Shown: in pieces, positions 1 to 42,697 of the stretch
Numbering within the stretch: the stretch's first letter is position 1
Layout of the letters: each line of letters opens with the position of its first letter
NCBI RefSeq assembly: GCF_016862975.1
Contig: NZ_BONZ01000035.1
Coordinates: 1-64,000 of the forward strand
Reading direction: 5' to 3'
Origin: Rugosimonospora africana
GTDB taxonomy: Bacteria > Actinomycetota > Actinomycetes > Mycobacteriales > Micromonosporaceae
DNA length: 64,000 nucleotides
The notes under the pieces: generated by a model
Database searches by the model: none
Told to the model about the DNA's origin: nothing
What the model saw: only the letters and a program-made list of their open reading frames with translations
Made by a program: the position numbers and the translations under genes

Positions 1-155
1 CCATGCCACACACCCCCGACAGTCCTCACCCACAGCCAGGGCTCAAAGCAGACGGACCCGACTTCGAGACACGCCGTAGCCGGCGAGGTCAGCACTTCGT
101 CGCGGGCGTTTCAAACGCGTTGCCGGTACCGGTGGCCGCGCCTACCCTCGTCCGA

Positions 156-6095: not shown

Positions 6096-7154
6096 ATGAA
6101 TCCCTTCACGAACGGCCCGTCCCGGCGCTCGATACTGTTCGGCGGTGCCGCGGTGGGCGCCGGCGCGTTGCTGGCCGGTTGCACCTCGAACGCGGACAAC
6201 AGCACGAAGAACGACACCGGGCAGACCAAGGTGACCGGCGGAGACAACGCCGCGCTGGGCAAGACCGTCACCATCGGCTTCTCCGCGCCGGCGGCCGACC
6301 ACGGCTGGATCCGGGCCATCACCGACAATGCGAAAAAGCAGGCCGCGCTCTACAAGGACGTCAAGTTCAGCCAGGTCGACGCGGGCGCCGACGCACCCGC
6401 CCAGATCGCCGCGCTGCAGACCCTGATCCAGCAGAAGCCCGACGTGATCGTGCTGCTGCCCCAGGACGGCGCCCAACTGACCGCGACCGGCAAAGCCGCC
6501 ATGGAGGCCGGGATCCAGGTCGTCAACCTCGACCGCGAGTTCTCCGACGCCGGTGCCGCCCGGCTCCTGATCAAGGGCGACAACTACGGCATGGGGCTGG
6601 CCGCGGGCCAGTACATCGGCGCGAAACTCAAGGGCCACGCCAATCCGGTCGTCGCCGAGATCGCCGGCATCGACAACCTGCCACTGACCCAGGACCGCTC
6701 CCGCGGTTTCCGCGACGGCCTGGCCCAGTACGGGCTCAAGGTGACCAACCGGGTCGCCGCGCAGTTCACCGTGCAGAGCGGGCAGGACGTCACCGCGAAC
6801 CTGCTCCAGGCGGCGCAGCGCATCGACGCCATCTGGAACCACGACGACGACCAGGGCGTCGGTGTCCTCGCGGCCATCAAGCAAGCCGGCCGCAAGGAAT
6901 TCTTCATGGTCGGCGGTGCCGGCTCGCTGGACGCGATGGAACACATCAAGAGCGGCGACTCACCGCTGGAGGCGACGGTCACGTACCCGCCCACGATGGC
7001 GTCGTCGGCCGTGTCGCTGGCCCGCCTGATCGGCCAGGGCAAGGGCATGAGTGACCTGGTCGAGCTGCAGGTACCGAAACAGATCGTGCTCACCTCCGAA
7101 ACCATCACCAAGTCCAATGTGGACAAATACCTGCCGCTCGGATTCAGATCGTAG
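6096..7154 (+). CDS. sugar-binding lipoprotein of the ABC importer (RbsB class)
   Basis: A 352-residue exported lipoprotein. The start is ATG with a strong CGAGGAGG nine bases before it. The N-terminus has the Tat-like motif SRRSILFG, a hydrophobic stretch and the lipobox LAGC. The mature part has the periplasmic-binding-protein I fold of the Peripla_BP_4 family (VTIGFSAPAADHGWIRAITDNAKKQA, then DVIVLLPQDG). It binds substrate on the outer face and hands it to the RbsC-type permease. The gene is 91 bases from the permease gene, the gap being filled by repeat copy A. Confidence 0.9.
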   Translation: MNPFTNGPSRRSILFGGAAVGAGALLAGCTSNADNSTKNDTGQTKVTGGDNAALGKTVTIGFSAPAADHGWIRAITDNAKKQAALYKDVKFSQVDAGADAPAQIAALQTLIQQKPDVIVLLPQDGAQLTATGKAAMEAGIQVVNLDREFSDAGAARLLIKGDNYGMGLAAGQYIGAKLKGHANPVVAEIAGIDNLPLTQDRSRGFRDGLAQYGLKVTNRVAAQFTVQSGQDVTANLLQAAQRIDAIWNHDDDQGVGVLAAIKQAGRKEFFMVGGAGSLDAMEHIKSGDSPLEATVTYPPTMASSAVSLARLIGQGKGMSDLVELQVPKQIVLTSETITKSNVDKYLPLGFRS

Positions 7155-7319
7155 GCCGTGTCTCGGAGTGCTCGGTCGAGCCGAGGCGAGGTCCAGGCGG
7201 CGGTCCGGCAAGGCGCCGTTTCGTCCCGATACCGGTGTTGTATCCGGGCGAGATGACAACGCCGCCGGTCGTCGTCTGGACCCGCCGCAGGCCGGCCAGG
7301 TACGTCGAGACACGGCCTG
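7153..7319 (+). repeat. family 3 structured element, copy 1
   Basis: An element of about 167 bp that starts inside the stop codon of the binding-protein gene. The outer arms AGGCCGTGTCTCG (7153-7165) and CGAGACACGGCCT (7307-7319) are perfectly complementary. An inner 13-base stem (GGTCCAGGCGGCG with CGTCGTCTGGACC) pairs completely if two G.U pairs are allowed. The apical hairpin has arms ending GATAC and GTATC around the loop CGGTGTT. The same loop and inner stems occur in the copy at 42531. It has no coding signal. It could be a miniature mobile element or a structured RNA. Confidence 0.75.
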
Positions 7320-11736: not shown

Positions 11737-12480
11737 ATGATCACCATCGGTCAGCTCGCCGGCTACGCCGGCGTGACCATCAAGGCGGTCCGCCACTACC
11801 ACGAGCGCGGCCTGCTGACGGAGCCGCCGCGGGACTCGTCGGGCTACCGGCGCTACACCGCCGACGACGCCATCCAGCTACTCAAGATCAAGACGCTCGC
11901 CGACGCCGGCGTGCCGCTCGCCCGGGTCAAGGAGTTGCTGGCCGCCGAACCCGACCAGTTCGCCTCGGCGGTCGCGACGATCGACGACAACCTGCGGAAG
12001 CGGGCCGAGGAACTGGTGCGTACCCGCGAGCGGATCGCCCAGTTGCGCGGCGGCGACCGGCTGTTCGTCTCCCCGGACGTCGCCGACTACCTCGACGACC
12101 TGCACGGGCTCGGGGTCAGCGAGCGTGTCGTGCAGGTGGAGCGGGACCTCTGGATCCTGCTCCAGGCGGTCTCGCCCGAACAAGCGGCCCACTGGCTCGC
12201 CGACAAGCGCGACGCGATGCGCGACCCGGAGTTCCGGGCAATCTACCGCGAGCACGACGAGGCGTTCGACTGGTCCCCGGACGACCCGCGCCTTTCCGCC
12301 CTGGCCGACCGCGTCCACCGGTGGCTCGCCGGCCGTGCGACCGGCGAGCGGCGGCGGTCCGCCCCGGACCCCGCCATCCTGCAGCTGATCGAATCCTCGA
12401 CCGTGTCCTCGCCGGCCTGGGAGCGGCTGGCCGACATCGCCAGAGACCGGGCGGCCGGGCGGGACGTTTCGACCGGCTGA
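11737..12480 (+). CDS. MerR-family transcriptional regulator
   Basis: A 247-residue regulator. The N-terminal MerR helix-turn-helix and wing are clear (ITIGQLAGYAGVTIKAVRHYHERGL, then SGYRRYTADDAIQLLKIKTLADAGVPL), followed by a dimerisation helix (residues 75-115). The C-terminal half of about 120 residues has no cysteines arranged as in metal sensors, so an organic ligand or a TipA-like role is more likely. ATG 11737 is preferred to 11713 because the HTH begins there and GAGAGGAG precedes it. No target operon is evident next to it; the AfsR-type gene follows after 154 bases. Confidence 0.88.
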   Translation: MITIGQLAGYAGVTIKAVRHYHERGLLTEPPRDSSGYRRYTADDAIQLLKIKTLADAGVPLARVKELLAAEPDQFASAVATIDDNLRKRAEELVRTRERIAQLRGGDRLFVSPDVADYLDDLHGLGVSERVVQVERDLWILLQAVSPEQAAHWLADKRDAMRDPEFRAIYREHDEAFDWSPDDPRLSALADRVHRWLAGRATGERRRSAPDPAILQLIESSTVSSPAWERLADIARDRAAGRDVSTG

Positions 12481-42061: not shown

Positions 42062-42532
42062 GTGCACAATGTACCGGTGGAGGACGAGAGCGGCGACGGT
42101 TGCCTGACGTTCCTGGTACGGCATGCCTGGCTGAGCATGCGCACGGCGGTGGCCGGGGCGCTCGCCGAGCACGGCCTCTCCGTCGCGCAGTACGGCACCC
42201 TGCTGTTTCTCGACGGGCAACCGGGCTGCACCGTCGCCGAAGTGGCGCGGAAGGTCGGCACCGCCCGGCAGTCGGCCAACGAGATGCTGGCCGGGCTGGA
42301 GCGCGCCGGCCTGATCGAGCGGCGGGCGCACCCCCATGACCGGCGCTCCCAGCAGGTGTTCATCACCCCGGCCGGGCGGGACCGGATCGCCGCCGCCACG
42401 CCTGCCGTGAGCGAGGCCGAAACGCAGTTGGAGATCGATTTCACCGACGCCGACCGGGCGACAGTCCGCCGCTGGCTGACCAGCATGACCGAGAGCGCCG
42501 CCGAAAGCCCCGAAGAGTTCTCCACACACTAA
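42062..42532 (+). CDS. MarR-family transcriptional regulator
   Basis: A 156-residue winged-helix repressor. The recognition region is CTVAEVARKVGTARQSANEMLAGLERAGLIERR, followed by the wing HPHDRRSQQVFITPAGR. Flanking helices form the dimer interface. The GTG at 42062 opens the frame; a GTG a few codons later is an alternative. It is divergent from the DHA2 exporter and presumably controls both genes through the twin operator. Its stop codon directly abuts family 3 copy 2. Confidence 0.9.
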   Translation: MHNVPVEDESGDGCLTFLVRHAWLSMRTAVAGALAEHGLSVAQYGTLLFLDGQPGCTVAEVARKVGTARQSANEMLAGLERAGLIERRAHPHDRRSQQVFITPAGRDRIAAATPAVSEAETQLEIDFTDADRATVRRWLTSMTESAAESPEEFSTH

Positions 42533-42697
42533 AGCCTCTTGGCAAACCCAGCTGACCGGCTGCGCCGCGCCCAGGCGGCGATCGGCGGCGTTGTCGGCTA
42601 GCCCGGATACAACACCGGTATCCGGGCAAACGTCCGCCGTGCCGGACGCCGCCCGGATCGCGGCTCGCTCGGCCAGAGGTCTGCCAACAGGCTCTGA
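42531..42697 (-). repeat. family 3 structured element, copy 2
   Basis: The second copy, inverted relative to copy 1, again starting at a stop codon (MarR gene). Its outer arms (AAAGCCTCTTGGCA and TGCCAACAGGCTCT) pair at 12 of 14 positions although their sequence is unrelated to the arms of copy 1. The apical hairpin has a perfect 10-bp stem (GCCCGGATAC / GTATCCGGGC) around the same loop CGGTGTT, and the inner GC-rich stem is kept. The rest of the 283-base gap up to the AlaRS-like gene shows nothing else. Confidence 0.75.

Follow-up and report, generated by a model that had tools for sequence, protein, structure and literature searches.

Two places in the window, by which we mean the whole 64,000-nucleotide stretch of Rugosimonospora africana DNA analysed here, carry an element of about 165 bp. 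It folds into a single long hairpin, whose apex, TACCGGTGTTGTA, is nearly invariant. The question that this locus raises is what kind of entity the element is. A first-pass annotation proposed either a conserved structure of RNA type or a miniature element whose mobility depends on its structure.

Two copies in the window

The first copy, a member of subfamily A, is a single long hairpin of 166 bp at positions 7153-7318 of the plus strand (A7153 to T7318). Its left arm, the terminal inverted repeat AGGCCGTGTCTCGGAGT, lies at 7153-7169, and the inverted repeat partner forms the right arm at 7302-7318 (minus strand). The conserved core (7174-7297, plus strand) encloses the almost invariant apical hairpin GATAC-CGGTGTT-GTATC at 7228-7244, plus strand. 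The second copy, which belongs to subfamily B and has arms AGAGCCTGTTGGCARACC, spans 42531-42695. It is inverted relative to the first, with its sense strand on the minus strand, where the same apical hairpin occupies 42606-42622. The common loop CGGTGTT of the first-pass annotation was thus confirmed, with GATAC/GTATC around it in both copies. Its outer arms, described as different and yet self-complementary, proved to be so: AGGCCGTGTCTCG and AGAGCCTGTTGGC each pair with their own partner. An inner stem is also present, but it extends well beyond the 13 bp assigned to it.

Neither palindrome is random (DNA-fold z = -6.5 for the first copy, RNA-fold z = -9.7 for the second). Covariance model R1, whose training alignment contains the first copy and excludes the second, scored them at 120.5 and 94.2 bits, respectively, on the predicted strands and at about 37 bits on the opposite strands (36.7 bits for the first copy). 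Where reading frames run open across the element, this is probably due to chance.

Both copies adjoin the end of a gene. The stop codon TAG (7152-7154, plus strand) of the ORF at 6096-7154, which we take by eye to resemble a sugar ABC transporter substrate-binding protein, overlaps the edge of the first copy, so the element does not begin directly after the stop codon, as had been annotated. This codon also overlaps the insertion junction, which, judging from empty sites elsewhere, would be a degenerate CTAG target; the right-hand target site is degenerate. The second copy overlaps the TAA (42530-42532) of a regulator-like ORF, presumably MarR-like as judged by eye. The two copies have opposite orientations relative to the genes that they follow.

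Family size and distribution

Approximately 30 related places were found in the R. africana genome. BLAST searches with the two window copies as queries returned 41 and 38 matches, which are overlapping sets and include partial matches. Three subfamilies share a common core and differ in their arms, which are AGGCCGTGTCTCGAAGT in A, AGAGCCTGTTGGCARACC in B and AGGYCCTGTCCTGCCGATC in C. Short hairpins of about 45-65 bp are also present, in which the arms are kept and the core survives only as remnants. One B-type copy (L032, G000:C93, approximately 12096-12261) lies inside another palindromic repeat, consisting of GCTTACCTGGACGCAACGTT and its partner.

An exact search for the 19-base apex pattern gave at least 110 matches among 84,980 species genomes, almost all of them in Micromonosporaceae; a couple of chance matches are expected in such a scan, and L090 and L108, at least, are probably of this kind. 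Nearly all of the matches listed come from Micromonospora, Asanoa, Longispora, Virgisporangium, Catenuloplanes and their relatives. The first-pass annotation had staked its claim on a covariance model search of actinobacterial genomes that would return further copies with preserved stems. Many further copies were found and their stems are preserved: 85 of the 399 genomes of the order match at E<=1e-5, a count that includes weaker matches seen only in part, some of them perhaps unrelated long hairpins. The element occurs in several actinomycete families, and the inspected members from other families (L356, L359-L361, L363, L366, L367, L372) keep most of the loop, often with one or two bases changed. 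No match to the element was found in plasmid and phage collections or in viral contigs.

A fold specific to one strand

The first-pass annotation had also called for a test of covariation, and the stems do covary. Across 33 diverse cores and 51 pairs, 90.2% of cells are paired, compared with 76.7% after shuffling, and both sides have changed in 29 of the 51 pairs (20.3 when shuffled). The covariation score is 0.391, against 0.156 for shuffled and 0.060-0.109 for slid versions. Single pairs appear as G.U, U.G, G-C and U-A across lineages.

This fold belongs to one strand. The consensus energy is -71 kcal/mol for the sense strand versus -41 for the other, and in 168 of 175 copies the sense strand, which carries the loop, gives the better fold. 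The same holds for all 17 divergent relatives, by at least 7 kcal/mol in 16 of them. The seven exceptions include the chance apex match L090 as well as L071 and L078, whose apex is flipped relative to the stem, which indicates that the asymmetry follows the stem. In L071 and L078, the inverted apical hairpin looks like the product of a recombination event within the palindrome.

Paired core cells comprise 186 G.U and 53 A.C, cells that are not independent because of shared ancestry and that were counted on a structure derived partly from sense-strand folds, which favours G.U. The arm count is free of this bias: 56 distinct G.T contexts stand against 15 A.C contexts, with arm boundaries set by an inverted-repeat score that makes no distinction between the two mismatches. 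A DDE transposase reads the arms as duplex DNA, and a neutral palindrome would show G.T and A.C equally.

These figures bear on the reading of the element as an ordinary MITE with a decaying palindrome, in which the strand asymmetry reflects inheritance from a single ancestor or mutation bias. The copies are related, and recent private changes in tight clusters are nearly symmetric (59 G.U versus 46 A.C; 24 A>G versus 24 T>C), with a slight excess of C>T over G>A (35 versus 22, p=0.11), so that a small mutation bias may be present. Simple decay nevertheless seems unlikely, given that more than half of the pairs have changed on both sides, that single pairs take different forms in different lineages, and that the asymmetry holds in exchanged arms and divergent relatives too. 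As the recent changes are near-symmetric, the long-term G.U excess is better explained by selection on propagating lineages than by mutation bias, a comparison of old and recent changes made by simple counts. Over its whole length, the element has kept the hairpin fold of a single strand, and its loop is fixed.

The loop and its alternative pairing

In the first copy, the loop segment GGTGTTGT (7234-7241, plus strand) could pair with the downstream segment ACAACGCC (7256-7263, plus strand) to give an alternative fold. This pairing, suggested in the first-pass annotation, can form at least 6 of its 7 pairs in 24 of the 32 aligned cores, but some clades have lost it and retain the loop (e.g. L373 and L374). 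Where present, the ACAACGCC partner drifts mostly by pair-preserving changes; the loop side is invariant, and covariation therefore cannot probe this pairing. Given its loss in loop-keeping clades, the alternative pairing is not essential to the family, and retention of the loop without ACAACGCC points to a role of the loop beyond it. No site complementary to the loop, as antisense pairing to transposase mRNA would involve, was found in the IS loci read. Integron attC boxes (RYYYAAC/GTTRRRY) at the hairpin base were looked for by eye and none were seen.

Insertion sites and stop codons

Two homologous Micromonospora regions provide reciprocal empty sites. The clean one reads AACTTGCACCG-CTAG-TTTTG in L111, where L073 has a 165 bp insert with CTAG on each side. 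The second (L073 empty, L111 filled) is less exact, its flanks having diverged. Two head-to-tail copies in L396 have a common CTAG between them.

In about two thirds of the copies, a coding-like stop codon is found at one of the edges. Among the 107 copies with clear arms, such a stop lies at the 5' edge in about 40 and at the 3' edge in about 30, with no clear bias. CTAG-type copies overlap a coding-like stop in 42 of 52 cases, compared with 49 of 100 non-coding CTAG sites in the same loci; this excess is an upper bound, as copies entered this class by having TAG at their left edge, and stops at either edge were then counted. Given that almost half of the non-coding CTAG sites already overlap such stops, the placement mostly reflects the choice of a CTAG/TNA target together with avoidance of coding sequence. 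Two species carry different subfamilies at one and the same stop codon of a shared gene (L137, 5950-6200; L169, 7035-7295).

A 3' UTR hairpin or bidirectional terminator that serves the host, with stop-codon copies kept for mRNA stabilisation or to stop transcription, would fit both the two-thirds proportion and the excess at CTAG. It would also fit a copy orthologous in four Micromonospora genomes (L099, L130, L153, L166) that is less variable than its flanks: in three of them, 4 of 165 sites vary, against 16 of 115 in one flank and 2 of 55 and 18 of 180 in other flank counts. This low variation could, however, reflect gene conversion among copies as well as purifying selection, and most of the stop-codon placement follows from the target. 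There is neither a T tract nor a terminator-like site, that is, a GC hairpin followed by a T run, and no clear orientation bias relative to the gene was detected despite the strand-specific fold, the two window copies themselves being oppositely oriented to the genes before them. This absence of bias lends no support to an mRNA role and does not in itself show what the fold is for. We consider a host-serving hairpin quite improbable. With regard to the replication strand, no clear bias in the orientation of copies was seen by eye on the match lists.

Ends of IS5-family elements around a common core

The outer arms match the terminal inverted repeats of IS5-family (DUF4096) insertion sequences (ISs) in related genomes; these ISs presumably belong to the IS427-like subgroup. 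The ends of L307/L314, CTAGGGCGTGTCTCCTGGATC, are identical to the L092 arms at 21 of 21 bases, and the end of L325 from M. avicenniae, CTAGGCCGTGTCTCGAAGT, agrees with arm A, including the left arm of the first window copy, at 18 of 19. The ends of L303 and L438 are like arm C, and those of L309 and L332 resemble Longispora arms. L461, with end GAGACTGTCGGGTAACC and TAA on both sides, comes from genome G243, which also contains MITEs with GAGACTGTCGGGAAACC. The encoded proteins match NF033580 (IS5 family) and PF13340 (DUF4096)/PF01609 (DDE_Tnp_1); the family-library check covered the proteins of two ISs, and the others were identified by a PF13340 search. These ISs thus share with the MITEs their terminal inverted repeats and, in L461, a TAA duplication, but differ in encoding a transposase and in being without the core. 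A core that forms part of an IS was rejected as a candidate, since blastn found none in the seven ISs compared. In the R. africana genome, no IS with arm A or arm B ends was found. A search for DDE_Tnp_4 gave 3 matches.

Cores that are 95-96% identical carry unrelated arms (L077 versus L436; L062 versus L132), which indicates that the ends were exchanged. Conversely, alike arms can enclose cores that are only about half alike, counted without gaps. The comparison covers the named pairs, as some of the automatically listed ones have misplaced arm boundaries. Many different IS5-type ends surround one and the same core of about 124 nt. From the ends held in common with ISs, movement in trans by IS5-family transposases is inferred. 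The element has the properties of a MITE: it is apparently non-coding, repeated and, at about 165 bp, well within the limit of 600 bp; it has inverted repeats in common with autonomous elements, in one case in the same genome; and its CTAG target is single in the empty L111 site and double in L073.

The strand-specific fold could also suggest a transposon that moves as single-stranded DNA, like IS200/IS605 or REP-RAYT elements. A Y1 (HUH) transposase would then move the folded sense strand, with CTAG as the left cleavage tetranucleotide. The change from one CTAG to two fits this as well as it fits a duplication, and some TnpB elements of the R. africana genome have similar ends, such as CTAGTGCCGTGTC in L287. 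The arms, however, are long inverted repeats of DDE-type IS5 elements, one of which is flanked by a TAA duplication, rather than subterminal-hairpin ends without long inverted repeats. Furthermore, the copy-bearing genomes G001, G023 and G066 have no TnpB match, and this kind of transposon is very improbable. The same genomes bear on the proposal that the non-autonomous element is transcribed into a TnpB guide RNA (omega RNA), for which one can cite the possible alternative pairing of the loop and a TnpB-like N-terminus adjoining an A-type end at a contig edge of the R. africana genome. With many copies in TnpB-free genomes, and no core seen 3' of the TnpB genes looked at, a guide RNA is largely excluded and retains hardly any probability.

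Some TnpB elements of R. africana (L287 in G000:C97, L285, L279 and L283) are bounded by or end in CTAG...GTGTC-type ends like the MITE arms; one example runs from CTAGTGCCGTGTC to GACACGGCACTAG over about 1577 bp. Several contig ends share the element end CTACGGCGTGTCTCGAAGTCGG, namely window positions 1-80 (the start of G000:C35), C61, C82 and C118, and in C61 it lies beside the TnpB-like N-terminus.

Discussion

This analysis points, with good probability, to a MITE family mobilised by IS5-type transposases, whose ends have been exchanged around a conserved, strand-specific hairpin core. Of the first-pass proposal, the mobile element holds because CTAG is doubled relative to the empty site, the ends are of IS5 type and the copy number is high, and the conserved strand-specific structure holds because of covariation; a dependence of mobility on structure is consistent with the data.

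By swapping ends, the element would outlive the loss of any single IS. Lineages would need the folded sense strand, as RNA or single-stranded DNA, in order to go on propagating, and the fold would then serve propagation and not the gene next to a given copy. More tentatively, and with some doubt, the core may be a module of RNA or single-stranded DNA whose loop is read by a conserved partner of its own. Such a module would be selfish and persist across actinomycete families by means of the ends of whichever IS5-family transposon is active, with the structure, not the ends, as its heritable identity.

A bacterial MITE is commonly taken for what a deletion has left of a single IS. In this family, several kinds of IS ends go with one structured core. 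There is strong covariation, and pairing is strand-specific even within the ends, features for which a plain DNA transposon has no need. Should spread require the folded strand, this would point to an RNA or single-stranded DNA stage for elements mobilised by DDE transposases. If it does not, the family would be a natural experiment in how a MITE changes its transposase. The covariance model makes both readings directly testable.

The class of element is known, and the combination of exchanged ends with a strand-specific core is apparently undescribed as far as our searches went: Rfam gave nothing meaningful at gathering or relaxed thresholds, with no family match at the gathering score, and a full-text literature search found no description of this MITE family. 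RUP of Streptococcus pneumoniae, a MITE mobilised by IS630-Spn1, is likewise a small, intergenic, non-coding repeat with IS-like ends, a TA-containing target and a predicted stem-loop transcript, but it depends on another transposase family and has one kind of ends, and a covarying strand-specific core is not reported for it in the accessible part of that source (PMC2229807). NEMIS/Correia elements of Neisseria are MITEs of a similar kind, 107-155 bp long, whose RNA forms a long stem-loop with a proposed RNase III effect on neighbouring mRNAs; their sequence and ends are different, and end exchange around a conserved core is not described in the same accessible part (PMC2229807). REP/BIME repeats with RAYT transposases (GTAG-tagged repeats) are, according to the portion of the source available, also high-copy intergenic palindromes with a tetranucleotide at the foot (PMC3733652), whereas the actinomycete element has 165 bp, IS5-type inverted repeats and a doubled CTAG.

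Relatives with a very different outer stem and the same apex were observed in Glycomyces (L098) and in L165, L369-L371 and L375, and most of them contain the motifs GCAAGGCGGA and GACAACG.
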